Shown here: one piece after another, positions 11,536 through 47,949 of the stretch
Layout of the letters: the number at the start of each line of letters is the position of its first letter
Numbering within the stretch: the stretch's first letter is position 1
Assembly: GCF_040954835.1 (NCBI RefSeq)
Contig: NC_090699.1
Span: 17,973,817-18,037,816 of the forward strand
Reading direction: 5' to 3'
Length of the DNA: 64,000 nt
Source of the DNA: Lepisosteus oculatus
Taxonomy: Eukaryota; Chordata; Actinopteri; Semionotiformes; Lepisosteidae
Program-made: the position numbers and the translations under genes
Notes under the pieces: model-generated
What the model was told of the DNA's origin: nothing
The model's input: the letters and a program-made list of their open reading frames with translations, nothing else
Databases searched by the model: none

Positions 11536-12748
11536 TCCCAGGACCCAGAAGCTGTTGGGTGGTAGTGGTAACTGCCATGCTATCTGTAAATTGTTTAATT
11601 CTGATGCAACAAGCAGCTCCAAAAATTATTAAATGGCTTTAATGCTTTGCAGAAAATGACTGTGTTTATAAATGCATTAATTTGTCAGCATACCTAAGCT
11701 TTACCGTCATTTTTGTGTGTGAATGCAGTGAATTTTCAAGCAATGCAGTCTTCTGCACTCACACCATTTCCTTGTCACAGAGGAAAAACCTATAGTAAGC
11801 ATTTCTCAGCTAAAATCAACTACTAGACAAACAACAAAAACTATGCAAATGCTGCCCTCTTCAGAAAATGTGAATGAACAGCATTTGGTTCCAGTGATAC
11901 GTCTGTTTTGCTACAGAACAACCTTTAAGGTTGCTTCTGAATTTTTAATATGGTCGAAAATGTGGTACATATATTTCCTATGACACATACTGCACCAAAG
12001 CTGAGCTCCCATTACACTTTAATGATTTCCAAGCAGAGCAGCAGTAGGTTTTACTTTTCAGCCAACTGTTAAAAAGATTCAGTGGATTCAAAAAGATCCA
12101 CTAACATTTAAATGATTGGTACTTTGCAAAATGTCTCATTGACTCCTAATGATTTTTGGTGTTTTTATTTGTCAGTATGTCTTCTTTCTCTTGCCCAAAG
12201 CCTCTCCTCATTAAGATGCTTGGCATGTGTGTTACTTTCTGCTTCTTTGTCTATTTTACGATTTTCGCAGTGCAGAGAGTAAAATTGAGCCAATATGGTA
12301 TTGAAATATACTTTTTAAAGACACCGGGAAACGAAACTATTAAAACGCCACATACAATATGTGTATGTATACAATACTTTGTCAATTATTTAAATGGGGG
12401 GGCGGTTTTAAAATAGAACGCAACAGCATGAATAGCACATTTTATGTATTCATAAATAAAATCCTCTCAGTGGACTAATCAATACTGTACTGTATATACT
12501 TGTATTCTGACCATAATTTAAGAACCTTTCACGATGCTGAAAGAATGGTAAAAATCGGGAAAAAACGCGTGTCTGTCTAATGAATATGCACTCTATACAA
12601 ACACAAAATTTCTCTACTTTTGTGCACACTTGACATCCGACCCCGTCCAGCGGGCCGAAGGCCAAATGCTTTACCGCGTCAATATCGGTTTTCCCATTTC
12701 AGCACTTTGGACAGCTTCGTTTCTGCAACGCAAGGTGTACTCGGTGCC
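11536..12748. other. IF-B upstream region
   Basis: AT-rich sequence with no supported coding exon. It presumably holds promoter-proximal regulatory DNA for IF-B. No element other than the TATA box could be defined by eye. Confidence 0.45.
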
Positions 12749-12755
12749 TATAAAG
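12749..12755 (+). promoter_or_regulatory. TATA box of IF-B
   Basis: TATAAAG, 57 bp upstream of the ATG at 12806. It makes the in-frame ATG at 12620 an unlikely start, because that one lies upstream of the expected transcription start. Confidence 0.7.
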
Positions 12756-12805
12756 CCCCTGTTCAGAGCTACCTCCTTTCACAGAAGCCGCTGTATCTTG
12801 CAGTC

Positions 12806-13825
12806 ATGGATTACCTGACAGGGCCTCCTCTAAAGCGAGCACAGGGCGATTTCAGCCGATTCATGCCCAAGAATCCTGTGGCATCTACAGAGCTGCAGTT
12901 CCTCAGGATGCCTGGACGAGCCCTTTCATTAAAAAGAAGCAAAGCGGGACTGCAAGAATTTAGCAGCTCTCCGGTTCTGAGACTAAACTCTAGTTCGGAC
13001 TATGCGCGGCAGTTTTCAGGAGACGAAAACCTCGTGAATATAAACGAAAAACAGCTGCTGCAGGGGCTGAATGAGCGCTTTGCCGGCTTTATCGATACGG
13101 TTCGTCAACTGGAAGATCAAAACAAGTGTTTAGAAAAAGAAATCGCCGAACTAAAACAAAAAGAATGCTCCCCTTCCGATTTAGCAGAAGTATACGATCC
13201 GGAGATTAGACAATTGAGGAAACAGATTCGAGAAATGGCTCTCCAAAAGAGTCAGATTGACCTGGAGCGCATTGATATGCAAGAAGACTGCAGTGCTCTC
13301 GCTATGAAGTTTGAAAAAGAAGTTCGGAACAGATCAGAGTCCGAAAGTTACATCGCGACTTTAAAGAAAGATATCAATGACGCTCAGCTTTTAAAACTCG
13401 AATTAGAAAAGAGAGTCGACGCCCTTGTTGCAGAAATCACTTTCCTGAAGAAAAACCACCACGAAGAGGTGTCCGAAATGATGGCCCAAATCCAACAGGC
13501 CCGCCTAACCGTGGAGGTGAAGGAGTGCGGGAAGGCGGACATCACCGCGGCTTTGCGGGACATCAGAAAGCAGCTTGAAGGTCACGCCAGCTCCAACATC
13601 CAGCACGCCGAGGAGAGTTTCCGCACTCGCGTGGAAAACCTGACCAGAGCCGCGGAGAGCAGCAGCCAGGCGCTCCAGAGCACGACACAGGAGATCCAGC
13701 AGCACCGCCGGCAGCTGCAGTCCAAGAGCCTGGAGCTGGAGACCGCCAAGGGCACCCGGGAGCTTCTGGAGAGACAGCTGTGCGACTTGGAGGAAAGGCA
13801 CGACGGAGAAATCAGTCATTACCAG
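12806..13825 (+). CDS. IF-B exon 1: head, coil 1 and first part of coil 2
   Basis: Starts [15 protein letters not shown] and ends HDGEISHYQ before the donor GTAAGA. Residues about 212-340 lie in the tract identical to IF-A. Codons in that tract are clearly richer in G and C than those of the preceding coil 1 region. Confidence 0.92.
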
Positions 13826-16800
13826 GTAAGATAAAACGGCAACGTGGGATGTCGAGGCCAGTAGAACAAAGTTTTTCTTATCTGTATGCTGTTCTACCCT
13901 ACAATGTATTCACCTGACAATTTCCAATGATCTCTCTGTGTTTTAGTTCCATCACATACTGTACGAATTCTATTGAATCAAGAGCAACAAATGTATCTGT
14001 GAAGAAAAGTAACAATGTTTACTGAGAGGTCAAACCAAAAATTGCCATCTTAAAAATAGCCCATTCCAGGTGTGAACAGATGAATGGATTACTCTTTGTA
14101 ATGACTAAATGTGTTTCAGAATTTACAGTAACATTAAGATTACAAACATTAAGACTTTCAACCAGATGAAAAAACGTTTAAACATGCAGGATTTAGTCTT
14201 GCTAAAGCTTGTCACTTTTGTTCCTTACATGGTGTAGATGATTTCCTCTCAAACATTTGTTTTAGCTCTTAACTTTGTCTCTTTATAGCTTTCTAACTTT
14301 TAGCTCTTAACCTGCTGTGACACAGGCTAATGTTATAATAAGATAAGATCACTTTATTGGCCATATACAATTTCTTGCATTAGGAATTCGTCTTTTCACA
14401 TACTCCAACTTGCTTTCCATGAGACACACAGACAGGGAGAGAAGCTGGGGGTCAGAGCGCAGGGTCAGCCATTTATACAGCACCCCTGGAGCGGTTGGGG
14501 TGAAGGGCCTCACTCAGGGGCCCAATGGAGTGGGACTCCTCTACCAGTCGCAGGATACGAACCAGCAACCTTCCAGCCACAGAGCCGCCTCACCCCTGGG
14601 TGATTCTGAGCCACAGGAAACTAGCTGTGTCATTGATCTGAGTGGTTCTGTAGATTCTTCAATGAGATTCTAGCCTCATGAGGACCATGGGAGGAAGCAA
14701 TAAAAACACAATCCGAATGTGTTGTGAGCATTTTCCAGAAATTCAAAGTGCTTTACAATAGCACCCCTGTAATACACATAATAGAAAACAGGAAATCCAG
14801 GACACTTACAAATGACAGCCTGCCATTTGTCCCATCTAGCTTGTTTAGTAGTTCTATATATATAATAGAAGGAAAAAGAAAAACATGGCAAAACTGATTT
14901 AGCAAAACTAAATAATACATTCAAATCTATAATGAAAAGAATGGTCTTTAAGCAAATGTTGAAAATGTCAACCAGGGCTGGGTTCCTAATGGATCTGGGC
15001 AGTGAGAGCATTGCTGAACATTTAGTGTCTTAAATCCTGAAGGGCAGAGACAATATCAAGCCAGGGGGCTATTTCCCACTCAGGAGCACAAACTACCAAA
15101 AGAGCAAGCCTGCTCTCGCCCTTCTTATATTCTAAAAACACCCAAGAAGGTAGTTATCCCAGTAAGGGTGCAGGCAAACCTGAGCCCATGCTGGAGACAC
15201 AGAGGGCTCTTGGACTGATACAGGACATCCAGTGAGCTACAATGTATTTACTGAATTCACTGCATGCTTTTCAGGAGACAATCAATCACCTGGAACTGGA
15301 GCTGAATCTCACCAAATCCGACATGTCTGGTCACTTGAGGGAGTACAAGGATCTGATGAATGTCAAAATGGCACTGGACGCAGAGATAGCATCTTACAGG
15401 TACAGTAATAATCCTCCACCTGCCTTTTACAGGTAATAATCCCAAACCTACGTTTTACAGGTAATAATCTCACATCTGTGTCATACAGGTAATAATTCCA
15501 CACCTGCATCATACAGGTAATAATCACACACCTGCAGTTTACAGGTAATAATACTTCACCTGCGTTTTACAAGTAATCATCCCAAACTTGCATTTTACAG
15601 GTAATAGTCCCACACTGCCTGTTCAAAACAACAGGTTTATGTTGTTTATGTTATGTTATGTTTATGTTTAGTGTGTGACGTATCATAATGGAATTGTGTC
15701 TACAAAACCTCAGCCTCAGTGAGTTGTTTGGTTACGTAAACAAAATATTTTAGCAAGGTGTTTACATGAAGGGTGCAGATTGGTTGTGAGACATTCAGAT
15801 ATAACTGGTCATATTTCAAAAATGTAGACATTTACATTGTGCATATGAATTAAGAAGCTGTTACTTGACGGCGATTTATACACAATATATATCAGAATGC
15901 TGCAAAATAAAAAAAAAGAAAAATGAACACTATGGAATTCTGGTGTAAATGTTGTACTTTGGGGGTGGCATGGTTGTGCTGTGATTAGTATTATTGCCTG
16001 GCTGTGCTGGGGCCATGGGTTCAATTCCTGGGGTGCTATCTCCATGGAGTTTGTATGTTCTTCCTGTGTTTTCGGGGGTTCCTTCTGGGTGCTCCAGAAG
16101 ACATGCTGGTAGATTAATTGACTTCTGGGAAAATTGGCCCTGGTGTGAAAATTGGCCCTGGGTGTTTGTTTCTGTACGTACCTTCGATGGATTGGCATCC
16201 TGTACAATGTGGTTAGAAATTGGATGGATGAATGTTATACTTTAATTGTGACAGCTTTGTACAGATTGACTCAACCACACACCCCTGGAGTATGCAAATG
16301 TGCATTACCACAATGTTTCTGAATAAATCTGAAATCTGATTATGTTTAAATTTGGTTAAGTTATATCTACTGTATCTTGTTACAGACTATGACAATGTAT
16401 CAATAACATTGTATTTGCAATGAGTACTCTTCCTGTCTTATCCTGACATATGGGTAATGCGTATCCTACTTTTAAACAGGAAACTGTTGGAAGGAGAAGA
16501 GACTCGTCTGTCTTCAGTGTCTGGATCCCAGATTTCATTGCCGTATGCGTACAGACAACCTCCAAGTTACACAAAGGAGCAAAGCAGAGCCTCCAAGACA
16601 GAGCTACAGTACAAGTTCGTTGAGGAGATCATTACCGAAACAACAAAAGAAGCAGAGATGACAGCGATTGAAGAGGCAGAATTGGAAACAAACAGAGAAG
16701 AGGAAGCAAGAGGGAATGGGAGCAGAGAGGAAGAGGAGGCAGCTGAGGCAGAGGAGACACAGGAGAGAGAGGGCACCCCAGAATCAGAGGATCAACATGT

Positions 16801-19800
16801 ACAGTCATCTCCTGAGGCTGAGGAGACACAGCAGAGAGAGGACACCCCAGAATCAGAGGATCAACATGTACAGTCATCTCCTGAGGCTGAGGAGACACAG
16901 CAGAGAGAGGACACCCCAGAATCAGAGGAACAACATGAACAGTCATCCCATGAGGCTGAGGGGACACAGCAGACAGAGGACACCCCAGAATCAGAGGAAA
17001 AACATGAAGAGACATCTCCTGAGGCTGAGGAGACACAGGAGAGAGAGGACACCCCAGAATCAGAGGAGCAACATGAACAGTCATCTCCTGAGGCTGAGGA
17101 GAGACAGCAGAGAGATGACACCCCAGAATCAGAGGAACAACATAAAGAGACATCTCCTGAGGTTGAGGAAACACAGCAGAGAGAGGACACCCCAGAATCA
17201 GAGGAGCAACATGAACAGTCATCCCATGAGGCTGAGGAGACACAGCAGACAGAGGACACTCCAGAATCAGAGAAACAACATGAAGAGTCATCTCCTGAGG
17301 CTGAGGAGACACAGCAGAGAGAGGACATCCCAGAATCAGAGGAACAACATGAAGCGACATCTCCTGAGGCTGAGGAGACACAGCAGAGAGAGGATACCCC
17401 AGAATCAGAGGAACAACATGAACAGTCATCTCCTGAGGCTGAGGAGAGACAGCAGAGAGATGACACCCCAGAATCAGAGGAACAACATAAAGAGACATCT
17501 CCTGAGGCTGAGGAGACACAGCAGAGAGGGGACACACCAGAATCAGAGGAGCAACATGAACAGTCATCTCCTGAGGCTGAGGAGGAAGGAGCAGCTGCAG
17601 TGAAACCAGATGAGGGAGGTGCTGATGAAGATGAATCTGGAGCAGAAGCAGCAGACGAGCCTGAGGATGTCCAACATGAGGGGAAGGTGGAAGAACACAC
17701 CACACAGGAAGCTGTGCCAGAGGAATCCCATGATGCAACAGAGACATTGGAAGTAGTGAAAGATGCTCCTGCAGAACAAACTGCAAAGGAGGTGAATGAC
17801 CAGGCGAAAAAAGAAGAAAGTGAAATAGAGGGAAGGAAAGCAGAACTTGCAGCTGCATCTGAATCAAAGAACACAATCAGGGACAGGATCCCAGAAAAGG
17901 ATGAAACAGAAGTATTAGAAGACAGGCAAGACCAATCTAAAACCAAGAAAGAAGCTTCTGGAGTAAAAGCCTTAAAGGAGGTGACAGACAGAGAGAAAAC
18001 AGAAGAAAAGGCAGCAGAAGACAAACCTGTGTCTGAAGCTAAGTCCCAGAAGAGTGACATTGAAGTGGCCCTGGAGAAGGATGAGAAAGAAGAAGTGCAG
18101 TCAGAGGAGCCTTCTGAGGACACAACCCAGAGAGAGGAAACCAAAGAGTCTTCAGCAAGACCACAGGAGAGCCCAGTAAAAGAAACTGTAGAAGATCAAT
18201 CAAAGGAGCACAGTGTTGTAGTGGAGGAAGTGGAGGCTGCAAAGGAAAAGAGCCCACAGAAAGAGACAGCAGAGGATCCCAAAGAAACATCAGTCAGACC
18301 CACAGGAAAGGAGCTTACAAGACCTACGTGTGAAGAGGGTGAAGAAAAGCCCACTGGTGTCAGAGCAGAACTTAAACACAGTCCTGCAGAGGAAAAGGTG
18401 GACACAGTGATGGCAGGAGAGGTTTCTGAGTCTACACCTGAAAAGACCGTACAGGAAACAGAAGACAAACAGGCACCCAAACACCTCCTGACAGAGGAAA
18501 GAGCAGAACAACTGGCATCGGAAAAGGGGGCTTCAGGACCCGAGATTGAAGCAGAGACAACAGCTGCAGGTGCTGAAACTGAATCCACAGACCTTCAGGA
18601 ACAGGAGAGTGTGAGTGAAGTCAAGCCCACAGAGAGCAGCGGTGACAAGAGTGACCACACCCACGAGAGAGCAGAGTCAACGGTCAAGGCCAGCGATTCA
18701 GTGGACAGAGACTCACAGAAGGAAGACACATCCGCTGATCAGAAAGACACAGCTAAAGAATCAGAAGGTTCCCAGAAGCCGGAGTTGACACTGTGTCCTA
18801 AAGAAGGACTGGAAGCTGCCAGCTTTCCAGGCACCAGGGAGAAGAAGGATAAAGAACCAGAGGAACCAACACAACAGGAACAGGAGGGAAGAGCTGAACA
18901 GAAACAAGATCCAGTGAAGGAACTCAGCGCAGGACTGAAATCTCAAGACCCTTCAGCCCAAAGAGAGAGACCATCTGAAAGCACAAAGACAGACAAGCGG
19001 GGGGACATGAAGCACACAGAGGGGATTCCACAGAAAGAGAAGCAACTGGAGAGGCCAGGCAGCCCAGGGCCCAACACCAAGGAATTAACTGCCAGCAGCT
19101 CCACAGACCTTAAAGCAGTCAAGGACACAGAAGTGCCTTCAGAAGACTCACAGGTAGCAGTAGAAATCAAAGAGCAACAGATTCTACCATCTGACTTGAA
19201 AGTAAAGAAAGAAGTTGACAAAGAGTTAAGAGAAGAAGTCAGACCCACCATTCAAGAGAAAGAGAAGCAACCAGAGAGGCCAGACAGCCCAGGACCTGAC
19301 ACCAAGGAATTAACTGCCAGCAGCTCCACAGACCTTAAAGCAGGCAAGGACACAGAAGTGCCTTCAGAAGACTCACAGGTAGCAGTAGAAATCAAAGAGC
19401 AACAGATTCTGCCCTCTGACTTGAAAGCAAAGAAAGAAGTTGAAAAAGAGTTAAGAGAAGAAGTCAGACCCACCATTCAAGAGAAAGAGAAGCAACCAGA
19501 GAGGCCAGACAGCCCAGGACCTGACACCAAGGAATTAACTGCCAGCAGCTCCACAGACCTTAAAGCATTCAAGGACACAGAAGTGCCTTCAGAAGACTCA
19601 CAGGTAGCAGTAGAAATCAAAGAGCAACAGATTCTGCCCTCTGACTTGAAAGCAAAGAAAGAACCCGAAACAGAGTTAAGAGAAGAAGTCAGACCCACCA
19701 TTCAAGAGAATAGGCTTGATGGAAGGGGAGATGTCACTGAGTCTGTGACTAAGACTAAAGAGGAAGATACAAAAGTGCCAGAAAAGGAATGTCAGCCTGA

Positions 19801-38084: not shown

Positions 38085-39195
38085 CAGGTGGTGCGGATAG
38101 GCAATAAAACATCACCACTTACCCTGAGCACTGGAACCCCACAAGGCTGCTGTCTGAGTCCAAGGTTGTACTCCCTATTTACTCACGACTGCACAGCAAG
38201 ACACAGCAACAACCGCATCATTAAGTTTGCCGATGACACCACTATAATAGGACTGATCAGTGATGATGACGAGTCCACTTACAGGGATGAAGTTGTACAG
38301 CTGCTTAGGTGGTGTCATAGCAATAACCTGGACTTGAACATAAAGAAAACGAAAGAGCTAATAGTGGACTTTCGGAGACACAGGCCACACACTCACAGCC
38401 CACTCAGTATTGATGGAACGGAAGTGGAAACAGTCACCAGCTTTAGGTTTTTGGGAATTCACATCTCTAAAGATCTAACCTGGACTGTGCACACTGACTC
38501 TATCATGAAGAAGGCTCAGCAGCGCCTTTATTTCTTGAGGTGCCTTAAGCGATGGGGGATGCCAATACATGTGTTGGTAAACTTCTACCGCTGTACTATC
38601 GAGAGCGTCCTCACCAACGGGATCACCGTGTGGTATGGCAACACCTCTTCGCGAGAAAAAAAGGCACTGCAGAGAATGGTCAATATGGCCCAGAAGATCA
38701 TCGGCTGCGGTCTCACCGAGATTAAACAGCTCTAGCCGTGGTAGAATTCTGGCCATCACAGAGGACAGTCACCACCCCGGGCATGAGCTCTTCACCCCAC
38801 TGCCCTCAGGCAAGAGATATAAGAGCATACGGACACTTACCACTAGATTCTTCAATAGCTTCTATCCACAAGCAGTGAGACTGGCGAACACATTTAGCCA
38901 TCCCCCTCGGACCACACCTACACCATCACCATCTACCTCATTGTAATTTATTTATTGTACGTCTCCAGTCATTGTTTACACGTCTGTATTGTTTACATTC
39001 AAACTGTCTGCATGTTTACTTGCACATTGTCTATTGTTTGTTTGTACATTGTCTTGATGCACTGTTTGCACTTTGTTTTGTTTTTTTACACTTGTTTTAC
39101 AAACGAGAGACTTTCTGTAAGTAAGAATTCCATTGTACCAGTACCGGTTACATATGGCAATAAAGTTCAAAGTTCAAGTTCAAGTTCAAGGTGTG
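38085..39195 (+). mobile_element. 5'-truncated LINE with reverse transcriptase C-terminal part
   Basis: The frame 38088-38735 contains a reverse transcriptase with GTPQGCCLSP, IIKFADDTTIIGLI (catalytic FADD box) and LNIKKTKELIVDF. A single frameshift near 38730 moves the rest to the next frame (ITEDSHHPGHELFTPLPSGK to SFYPQAVRLANTF, stop near 38946). The 3' end is an AAGTTCAAGTTCAAG short repeat, typical of non-LTR elements with a simple-repeat tail. The clade is probably in the CR1/L2/Rex1 group but this is uncertain. Confidence 0.85.
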
Positions 39196-40802: not shown

Positions 40803-41043
40803 TGTAGTGCTCCAGGGTTCACATGGGCACCCTCACTGCTGCCACATCAGGTCAGCCCCACCACCATCAGGGACTTGAACCCAGGCCTCCAGCATCACTC
40901 AACAGGGACCCAGCCTCTTGAGCCAAAGGGAGATCTCCCATCAGCCCAGCCGCTGCAGTCCCTGCTATCCACAGGGAAGGGCGGTGACGTCACCGCTCTG
41001 GTAAGCCGGCTCTCACAACCAATGGTGGCCGTATGGCGTTACA
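40803..41043 (-). mobile_element. Older solo LTR-like relative of the TRIM element
   Basis: On the minus strand it starts TGTAACGCCATACGGCC and ends CACTACA, and shares in order the CRE palindrome TGACGTCA, a GAGATCTCCCTTTGGCTCAA stretch and the B-box GGTTCAAGTCC with the 235-bp LTRs at 41531. It is strongly diverged. No matching target duplication was seen. Confidence 0.7.
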
Positions 41044-41530
41044 ATATAAACTGGAGGTTAGTTTGGACAACTCCTGATAGATGATTGTATTACAAATAAA
41101 GTTAAAGAGATATCGTTTAAAATTGTTCATAACTTTTATCCAGTTAAATTAGTGCTCTCTAAATTTAAGCATGAGCACGATGATCTGTGTGTTTTTTGTC
41201 GGGATGAAAGGGAATCTTTGGTGCATTTATCTGTTAGGTGTTGGGTTGTAAAGTTGTTTTGGATGGACTTGCAGAGTTTTGTTTGCAGGCAGTTAAAGGT
41301 GTTTTTTAGATTTAAGGATTTTGATATTTTATTGTACTGTTTAATAGAAAATTTGGAAAAAGAGCATTTATTTATAGTAAATTTATTAGTCATTCTGGGT
41401 AAATTTCACATTCATAAATCAAAATGGTCTAATCATACTCCCCTTTTTAGTACTTTTGTAGGTGGAGCTGAAACACTATTTAAATTCTATAAAAATTGAG
41501 AAATAATAAAGCAAGGAAAACATATGATAT

Positions 41531-42062
41531 TGTAACGCTTACGGCCGACAGGTACTGTGTAAGAGCCGGCGTACCAGAGCAGGTGACGTCACCGCCCTTC
41601 CCTGTGATAGCAGGACCACAGCTACTGGGCTGTGGAGAGATCTCTCTTTGGCTCACGGGGCTAGGTCGCTGCAGAGAGACGCGGAAGTCCCGGGTTCGAG
41701 CCCCGGACGGTGCAGGGGCCGACCTAATGCGGCAAGGGCGCCCGCCGGAGCCCCGTTGCGTTACATTGGTGTCAGAAGCGGGGCGGGATAGCCCTTCGCT
41801 GGGGACTGCGATTTAAGCGGGGGAGAGTGTAACGCTTACGGCCGACAGGTACTGTGTAAGAGCCGGCGTACCAGAGCAGGTGACGTCACCGCCCTTCCCT
41901 GTGATAGCAGGACCACAGCTACTGGGCTGTGGAGAGATCTCTCTTTGGCTCACGGGGCTAGGTCGCTGCAGAGAGACGCGGAAGTCCCGGGTTCGAGCCC
42001 CGGACGGTGCAGGGGCCGACCTAATGCGGCAAGGGCGCCCGCCGGAGCCCCGTTGCGTTACA
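41531..42062 (+). mobile_element. TRIM-like miniature LTR element with tRNA-like sequence in the LTR
   Basis: Two 235-bp direct repeats (41531-41765 and 41828-42062) read as identical, each beginning TGTAACGC and ending GCGTTACA. Between them are only 62 bp. These start with a primer-binding-site-like TGGTGTCAGAAGCGGGG, complementary to a tRNA 3' end of the Leu type, and end with a purine tract GCGGGGGAGAG. A 4-bp ATAT duplication flanks the whole. Each LTR holds the palindrome TGACGTCA and a tRNA-like block: A-box-like TGGCTCACGGG, B-box GGTTCGAGCCC and a 5-bp/7-nt T-arm. No protein is encoded, so mobilisation would need proteins from another element. Confidence 0.85.
41649..41703 (+). promoter_or_regulatory. 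tRNA-like internal pol III promoter (A and B boxes) in left LTR
   Basis: A-box-like TGGCTCACGGG at 41649-41659 and B-box GGTTCGAGCCC at 41693-41703, with near-normal tRNA spacing. The same boxes recur in the right LTR at 41946-41956 and 41990-42000. Confidence 0.6.
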
Positions 42063-42246
42063 ATATTTAAAAAATAGAATTTGATCACATAATTTACTTC
42101 ATTACCTCTGGCGGTTAATTTTTTTTTGTTTGTGTTTTTTCTCTTGTACCCGTTTTTGATCCTCTAGTTGTAGTTGTATTTGTAAATTCTTTATACAGTA
42201 CGTTTAATACATTTTTTTTAAAAAAAAAAGACTCCTGAGCCCAGTT

Positions 42247-46347: not shown

Positions 46348-46520
46348 GTAACAGTTCTTGGGGTCCCCGCCCTTGCCGCTTCTGCTCTGCCAGTTCCTCC
46401 CTCACTGCCTGGGCGCGAACCCGGGTCTCCGGCGTCACGCAACAGGGAACTTGCCAGCTGAGCTAAAGGAGAGGTCCCCCAGTCTGGGCAGCTGAGATCT
46501 CTGTTATATGCAGGGGTATA
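46348..46520 (-). repeat. tRNA-like repeat related to the TRIM LTR
   Basis: The minus strand has GGAGACCCGGGTTCGCGCCC (B-box), an A-box TAGCTCAGCTGG, the shared GCGGCAAGGGCG block and an ACTGTTAC end. It keeps the order of the LTR modules but is strongly diverged. Confidence 0.5.
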
Positions 46521-47949
46521 TTCGGTACACTGGACACACCTGTCTGTACGAGGTGCTGTTGTCTCCCTTGCAAAGTTATCCACAGCAGACACAGATTTCG
46601 TGTGAGTGCCGCGGTTTATGTTTAAAGACCTTTCCAGTTTGCTTGGGGTGGGCAGGGACAGTGTTTCAACACCTTCAATCCTACATGGGTCAAAGGAATC
46701 ATTTCTGTTTATGCGTGCAGTACAGTCTCATACAGTACGGCAACATTTGTTTGACTGATTCATTTGCTGAAGTACTTTCAATTAGCAATGTTGTCTAGTA
46801 GACATCACTTAAAAGTCAAAACACTAGCTCGTGCGGTCAGAACAATCTGGACAGAAGAATCTGACATGATGGTAATTACTCTGGAATGGAGCATGGAGGA
46901 GGAGAAAGGGATGATTGATCTTACTACCAGATTTAGCGTGATGCATTAGAAAGGTTGAGATTTTTTCAGGCAAGTGACAAGTCATGACTTGTTATATGAC
47001 AAATTGTTACAGTCTAATAAAAAGGCTTAAAATTGATGTCCGCAACCTGAGCTTTACTCTTACATTTGAGCTTTTTACTAGAATGTATTTCCTCTTAATT
47101 TATGACTGTTCCATTTTTTTCTTAATCTGTGTAAATCTGTAAAAAATGCAATTGTTTGCTTCCTGGTTACTGGTGACATAGTCAGTACCATTTTTGTGAA
47201 AGTACCCCAAAAAGAAAATTGCACATATATTTAATTCTGTGAATAGCTAACATTTCAGTCAGGGAATGACAGAACTGCAGCACAGCGTAACTCAAAGGCT
47301 TAAAATAATTTGTTATTCTGCCCGTCTTTCTGAGTACCCACCTCTGCATTGGTAAGATATGTGCCGACATGAAATCACAGCTGAGCGACAGGCCCAGAGG
47401 ATGCTTGACTTTCAAATCACTTCGACGTTTTTTTTTTGTTAACGTTGTATGCAAATAAATACAAATTTCAATTTTATGGAATCATGCACTCAGTGACAGT
47501 ACTCAAACTTCAAATAAGGTGCTGGAGGGCAATCTTGATGTTGTGAAACCATTAATATGATAGGCATTGACACCTTTTGCAAAGTGCAAAAGACAAATGC
47601 CATTTCTTCAAAAACAATTACTGGCTGAGACTGAGGGTTGGAACCAATGAGTCTCCTGGCTTTTAATCCCTCGACTGGCACTGCCACTCCAGTATGTTAG
47701 ATTCAAAACTTCAATTGCTTGAAATGCCTGAGAGCCCAGATCTGTCACAGGCCACGCTTAGGTACAATTTCTGCAATTCCGCTTGTTTTCAGACTTCAGC
47801 AAATATAGAGCTTTCAAAGTAATGTTTTTTTTTATTGCTGGAAAAAATATACCATATACCCAGTCATTTGTCTCACTTTTGCATCATGCAGAAATTAAGT
47901 TTGCATGACTATGTGGCAGTGACATATCTTTTACTGTGGTGATAAGTAT
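46521..47949. other. Gene-poor region
   Basis: Nothing recognised in this AT-rich stretch on either strand. Confidence 0.5.

Follow-up and report, generated by a model that had tools for sequence, protein, structure and literature searches.

The 532-bp element at positions 41531-42062 of the window, that is, of the whole 64,000-nucleotide stretch of Lepisosteus oculatus DNA that was analyzed, carries promoter boxes of the tRNA type inside its long terminal repeats (LTRs). This combination raises the question of which RNA polymerase transcribes the element, where its RNA starts, and how so short a non-coding sequence is copied.

Structure of the element and its tRNA-type boxes

The 5' LTR (41531-41765, + strand, with TGTAACGC...GCGTTACA ends) and the 3' LTR (41828-42062, +) were compared directly and were identical over 235 bp, with 0 mismatches. 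The 4-bp target site duplication (TSD) ATAT adjoined the 5' LTR on the left (41527-41530) and the 3' LTR on the right (42063-42066). Between the LTRs was a non-coding interior of 62 nt (41766-41827, +), in which the primer binding site (PBS) TGGTGTCAGAAGCGGG (41767-41782, +) lay one base after the 5' LTR and the polypurine-like tract GCGGGGGAGAG (41817-41827, +) stood directly before the 3' LTR. The PBS was complementary to a tRNA-Leu-type 3' end. It was compared with 14 genomic 3' ends of the type GGTTCRAATCCC(A/G)CTTCTGACA, which we take to be tRNA-Leu 3' ends with CCA added; the single end with G fitted at 16 of 16 nt, and the thirteen with A fitted at 15 of 16 nt. No open reading frame (ORF) of at least 120 aa among those listed for the window overlapped the element, and a motif search found neither AATAAA nor TATA(A/T)A in it. 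TTTT was also absent from the element by motif search, and this absence was dropped as evidence, because TTTT was present in 638 of 2000 shuffles and chance explains the result.

The A box TGGCTCACGGG (41649-41659, LTR position 119, +; second copy 41946-41956) was located by a box search, and the B box GGTTCGAGCCC (41693-41703, LTR position 163, +; second copy 41990-42000) lay inside a T-arm-like hairpin, CCGGG-TTCGAGC-CCCGG (41690-41706, +), which was obtained by hairpin alignment. The motifs TGGCT...CGG (A) and GGTTC (B) were 44 nt apart in the LTR. By dinucleotide shuffling, 20,000 versions of the LTR were made. An A box and a loose B box with tRNA-like spacing arose on either strand in 28 of them, an A box and an extended B box in 3, and the boxes together with a T-arm able to fold, counted on the + strand, in 0. 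The initial annotation, made from the letters of the sequence, had given the same coordinates, identical 235-bp LTRs, 62-bp interior, PBS, purine tract and ATAT duplication, and all of these were exact on re-examination; its tRNA-type A and B boxes with a foldable T-arm were borne out as well.

ARAGORN found no tRNA gene in the window, and no tRNA match was listed by Rfam even at permissive thresholds. A functional tRNA with a full cloverleaf in the LTR was rejected on these two results. Judged from the sequence, the LTR resembles a tRNA in its promoter boxes and T-arm alone, and the boxes are promoter-like only. Further, Rfam listed no 5S rRNA match in the LTR, a match that serves as the criterion for Cassandra.

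Genome copies, the Helenus kind and the search for a helper

The full 532-bp query was searched against the host genome of 1.2 Gb and gave at least 86 matches, with 40 of 2275 candidates scored; among the scored candidates, the matches spanning all 532 bases were 95-100% identical. In the genome, 2178 places matched a core of 20 LTR bases in which two positions were left free. At the 39 other loci, which were fetched from the best-scoring candidates only, a perfect 4-bp TSD was present in 37 (the exceptions were L011 and L037), or at 32 of 34 distinct flanks when identical flanks were counted once, and 31 of the 32 distinct TSDs had a central TA. Among the 28 single copies in which both LTRs were complete, the LTR pair was identical in 9 and differed by 1-6 bases in the others; these 28 had been chosen by similarity to the window copy and therefore lean towards young ones. 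The element is an LTR-interior-LTR unit with a PBS, a purine tract and 4-bp TSDs, and it is present in many young copies.

Five loci on three contigs (L022, L024, L025, L031 and L042) had common flanks (tatactat / ctataata), and these flanks suggest that they are probably one insertion carried within another, amplified repeat. Tandem LTR-interior arrays were seen at L016 (G000:C8:38133490-38140001), L014, L017, L021, L027, L030, L033 and L045. The largest, L016, contained 22 LTRs and 21 interiors, all within a single 4-bp duplication.

Helenus elements are described in the main text of PMC10886601 (Kojima 2024) as TRIMs with tRNA-derived LTR promoters from fungi, animals and one plant, and the animal hosts named there include coelacanth, sturgeon, paddlefish, zebrafish, other fish, bivalves, wasps and more. 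According to the same text, their tRNA-derived boxes read TRGCY...YGG (A) and GGTTC (B), the TSDs in animals are of 4 bp, the primers in vertebrates are tRNA-His, -Leu or -Lys, and tandem arrays occur in zebrafish LTR-11_DR, a Helenus family. Of the features required of Helenus and TRIMp3, two LTRs, a length under 1000 bp (532 bp here), no protein, A and B boxes, a PBS, a polypurine tract and a 4-bp TSD were found in the window element. In its TRIM length below 1000 bp, LTR-borne A and B boxes, PBS and polypurine tract, 4-bp TSDs, tRNA-Leu primer and tandem arrays, it was in agreement with the published description (PMC10886601). By these sequence features, the window element is a Helenus-type TRIM, of a kind already published in 2024.

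These results bear on the remaining claims of the initial annotation. It had proposed a genome search for full copies with flanking duplications and had staked its reading on the existence of other copies; at least 86 matches were found, with TSDs at 37 of 39 loci. The local tandem duplication that it had raised as a contrary outcome was rejected on these matches and TSDs. The recent insertion holds, with identical LTRs in the window and many young copies elsewhere. Its view that no well-described animal counterpart uses a tRNA was wrong, as Helenus was named in 2024 with fish included (PMC10886601). The earlier interpretation thus stands or is still the best reading for the TRIM structure, the recency, the tRNA-type boxes and the mobilization in trans, and fails for the novelty in animals.

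Two other kinds of element are worth comparing. Like Cassandra, a plant TRIM, the window element bears a pol III-type promoter in its LTR and forms long tandem arrays (PMC7215508); the promoter is a 5S promoter there, whereas tRNA boxes are present here. Cassandra RNA ends within the 3' LTR, as told in PMC10886601, while the window element has no TTTT, a difference that is not significant alone. Like tRNA-derived SINEs, the element has an internal pol III-type promoter and is non-autonomous, but it has LTRs, a PBS, a polypurine tract and 4-bp TSDs, unlike the SINEs.

A helper that could supply the enzymes, for Helenus a Gypsy element with the same PBS, was sought through the LTR end and PBS. 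Used together as a pattern, they matched 127 places in the genome. Thirty of these loci were read: 13 were the window TRIM (L063 and L064 overlap), and 17 (L050-L060, L070 and L073-L077) were another family with the same LTR-PBS junction, TTACAT-TGGTGTCAGAAGCGGG. In this other family the LTR end was pol II-like, with AATAAA close by in 16 of the 17 loci. Twenty ORFs chosen at six loci of the family (L078, L080-L083 and L086) gave neither reverse transcriptase nor integrase; 18 of these ORFs had no Pfam family, and 2 were Tc1-type transposases. The AATAAA family is therefore unsupported as the helper. One genome pattern for further tRNA-Leu PBS families gave 0 matches, and the LTR end-PBS pattern, the ORF and Pfam checks and the tRNA-Leu PBS pattern yielded no coding parent, of which the element might be a deleted form, as in the last contrary outcome raised by the initial annotation.

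Head-to-head joints and the proposed RNA start

Ten partial LTR matches among the 124 reported all began at LTR positions 103-110 and formed inverted pairs in five loci. In such a joint, the LTR ran outward both ways from one copy of a 12-bp inverted repeat, GAGAGATCTCTC (41635-41646, LTR 105-116, +; second copy 41932-41943); the core had a two-base variant in L017 and a 10-bp version in L098. As a genome pattern, the joint matched 68 places with at most two mismatches (10 exact and 9 with one), which need not be 68 events, since some are possibly copies of one and four are on contig C283. The reversed pattern, used as a control, gave 0 matches. Among the matches listed, 27 of 31 two-mismatch places shared one common sequence with the A box TAGCTC on both sides, and the five joints of this type that were read (L101-L105) had different flanks.

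A total of 13 joints were read, in a sample that was not random. Two (L096 and L101) consisted of nothing but U5-R-R-U5. Seven (L017, L097, L099 and L102-L105) met the flank with U5 at one side and ran into the PBS on the other, and three (L019, L038 and L098) entered the interior on both sides, the seam of L038 being irregular. At L100 (G000:C12:27154131-27154430), the arms were 86% alike, and the left arm jumped from the U5 part to the 5' part of the LTR; L038 and L100 were more complex than the other joints read. At positions 275-300 of L105, the right arm spanned the spacer base and the 16-nt PBS exactly and then departed from the element, which is the end point that a copied tRNA primer would give. 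In addition, at L106 (G000:C11:38161482-38161661), a minus-strand LTR with its interior met a plus-strand LTR at the PBS, with GAG at the seam.

In all five joint insertions with both ends available (L017, L019, L038, L096 and L101), the reverse complement of U5 came first and U5 came last, and a perfect 4-bp TSD was present in 5 of 5. This indicates that the joints formed before integration and are integration products. It is quite unlikely, in our judgment, that they arose in the chromosome through a template switch, or through recombination, at a short palindrome, in which case they would say nothing about the RNA start. Such an origin would fit the position of the joints on a perfect 12-bp palindrome and the tandem arrays, which suggest genomic rearrangement of copies. 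However, internal rearrangement of an integrated U3-to-U5 element alone cannot yield two U5 ends, and in each of the five complete cases both outer ends are U5 and the TSD is intact. Moreover, of the 285 matches to a joint at the CRE palindrome, of equal length (12 bp) and in the same LTR, none was exact. Fifty of the 285 were listed, 8 of them with one mismatch; 5 were ordinary LTR, and the three on C3, C10 and C12 were ambiguous between a changed LTR and a mutated joint. The 42 two-mismatch places among the matches listed were ordinary LTR variants.

We infer that the joints are dimers of minus-strand strong-stop cDNA, which would place the RNA start near LTR 105, with the 12-bp palindrome as the putative RNA 5' end and start of R. 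The joints fix the cDNA end only if it is untrimmed, and the 10-bp core of L098 implies a start near 107. If the RNA begins with the 12-nt palindrome, the 3' ends of strong-stop DNAs are self-complementary. Two such DNAs would anneal there and prime each other to give U5-R-R-U5; copying of the tRNA primer would add the PBS, with which neither side, one side or both could enter second-strand transfer, and integrase would insert the dimer product through its two U5 ends. The strong-stop dimer account seems to be the simplest single account of the joint types, and the joints may preserve a natural trace of the point at which reverse transcription ran off the end of the RNA.

Palindromes could also be made by snap-back self-priming of a single strong-stop cDNA, which would leave the inference on the RNA start unchanged. 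The 12-mer could conceivably fold with a two-base loop, the arms of L096 agreed at 118 of 119 bases, and arms of one subfamily could arise from a single cDNA. On the other hand, among ten joints compared, the arms of L101, L102 and L104 carried blocks of clearly different LTR subfamilies, which points to two templates, and snap-back is regarded as somewhat unlikely. One arm of L105 was unclassifiable, and the arms of the old L100 differed too.

No description of integrated U5-R-R-U5 palindromes was found in the titles and opening abstracts of the open-licence papers listed in the literature searches. Fungal GalEa elements have palindromic sequences at their primer site, which are a different feature (PMC5445492).

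Upstream promoter elements and the polymerase

When +1 was set at LTR 105, the A box started at +15, the CRE/ATF site TGACGTCA (41584-41591, LTR 54-61, +; second copy 41881-41888) was at -51/-44, and the TATA-like stretch GTGATAGC (41604-41611, +; second copy 41901-41908) was at -31/-24. The cDNA end from the strong-stop dimers would thus fall where a pol III start is expected. In the text of PMC7279448, the CRE is at -51/-44 in the EBER, 4.5SH and 7SL genes (-50/-43 for 7SL in its table), at -53/-46 in the vault gene and at -54/-47 in a 4.5SI gene, and a TATA-like box is at -31/-24 in such pol III genes. The site of adenovirus VAI is at -38/-31 in the same source, and the spacing is therefore not universal. 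Like the 7SL, EBER, vault and 4.5SH genes, the element has A and B boxes, a CRE in the region of -51/-44 and a TATA-like box in that of -31/-24 (PMC7279448); their upstream flanks are fixed, whereas the upstream elements here travel inside the LTR. SINEs are described in that text as having no CRE at -50, in contrast to the window element.

The CRE was kept in 94 of 101 distinct LTR copies covering it among the copies examined. Two copies, a solo LTR in the window (40840-41043) and one in L068, have diverged most (79%); the CRE was intact in both, and their palindrome was GGGAGATCTCCC, changed on both sides. The former, an old solo relative of the same LTR on the - strand, also keeps GATAGCA and the A and B boxes. 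Inside the main family, palindrome positions 2 and 11 were other than A..T in 17 places among the first hundred or so listed of the 2178 (counted by eye: G..T 8, G..C 5, T..T 2, A..C 1 and C..T 1), which is weak evidence for covariation.

A piece of a second, older related family was found at 46370-46530 (- strand), with the A box TAGCTCAGCTGG, the B box GGTTCG, CATATAAC upstream, and no CRE. This family gave at least 41 genome matches (40 of 1357 candidates scored). At L107, two of its LTRs surrounded a 61-nt interior homologous to that of the first family (score 37, compared with a maximum of 24 in 1000 shuffles). The A-B spacing was 44 in 5 of 5 copies read, and (C)GTATAAC or CATATAAC was at or within 1 nt of -31/-24: CGTATAAC was at this position in L107, L109 and L110 and was shifted by one base in L108, and the window copy had CATATAAC. 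The TATA-like stretch of the first family aligned with GTATAACA in the second. The start region of L108, taken 14 nt before the A box, was self-complementary with one G-T pair, GGGGAGCTCTCC, and was less regular in the other copies read. The U3 was only about 50 nt, and no CRE was present in the copies read; the younger family may have gained a longer U3 with the CRE. When the second family was searched for head-to-head joints with one pattern, there were 0 matches.

Pol II can use a CRE as well, and does so in other LTRs. The element might accordingly be transcribed by pol II from a CRE-driven, TATA-less LTR promoter, the tRNA-like boxes being functionless remnants of an old SINE; the conservation of the CRE and the lack of a tRNA in the Rfam and ARAGORN results would be in line with this. 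We consider it unlikely, as the LTR has no AATAAA, compared with 16 of 17 loci of the other family sharing the PBS, the 44-nt A-B spacing is kept in two diverged families, and the distance from the CRE to the start is that of several pol III genes (PMC7279448).

The whole reading, that of a Helenus-type non-coding TRIM with a type 2 pol III promoter in its LTR, an RNA start near LTR 105 and palindromic strong-stop dimers, appears probable on the sequence data. In such an element, TFIIIC would bind the A and B boxes, aided by the CRE at -51/-44 and the TATA-like box at -31/-24, and pol III would start near position 105 of the 5' LTR and read through the 3' LTR. Minus-strand DNA would be primed by tRNA-Leu, and copying and integration would be performed by the enzymes of some LTR retrotransposon. 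Because an LTR element rebuilds U3 in each round, the upstream pol III elements would be kept, unlike in a SINE. This suggests what a pol III element may gain from LTRs: upstream promoter parts that SINEs lose at each jump are regenerated with U3. A more specific account is offered tentatively, as a possibility: the 7SL/EBER-type promoter would be renewed in U3, and the self-complementary RNA 5' end, maintained through covariation between families, would cause strong-stop cDNA dimers to integrate as U5-R-R-U5.

Four features set the element apart from Helenus as described, namely a CRE at -51/-44, a TATA-like box, the proposed palindromic start of the RNA and the head-to-head dimers; the contrast is one of published description, and Helenus families may share all four. 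The main text of PMC10886601 contains no mention of CREB, cAMP, palindromes, inverted forms or a start site. As far as checked, the spacing of the CRE, the proposed start of the RNA and its palindromic cDNA dimers would be new within the Helenus kind. Pol III transcription of Helenus is stated in PMC10886601, the one research description found besides a meeting report, as not experimentally shown, and with the gar element it becomes directly testable in a live animal.

Other features were observed in the window. Tandem repeats of 69 bp were present at 16743-17584 and 111-673. The array at 16743-17584 sits within an acidic frame of 1137 aa, with an intermediate-filament-type ORF (12620-13834) upstream of it, and looks like a neurofilament tail. 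A reverse transcriptase fragment (RVT_1), probably from a LINE, was found at 38088-38735 (+).
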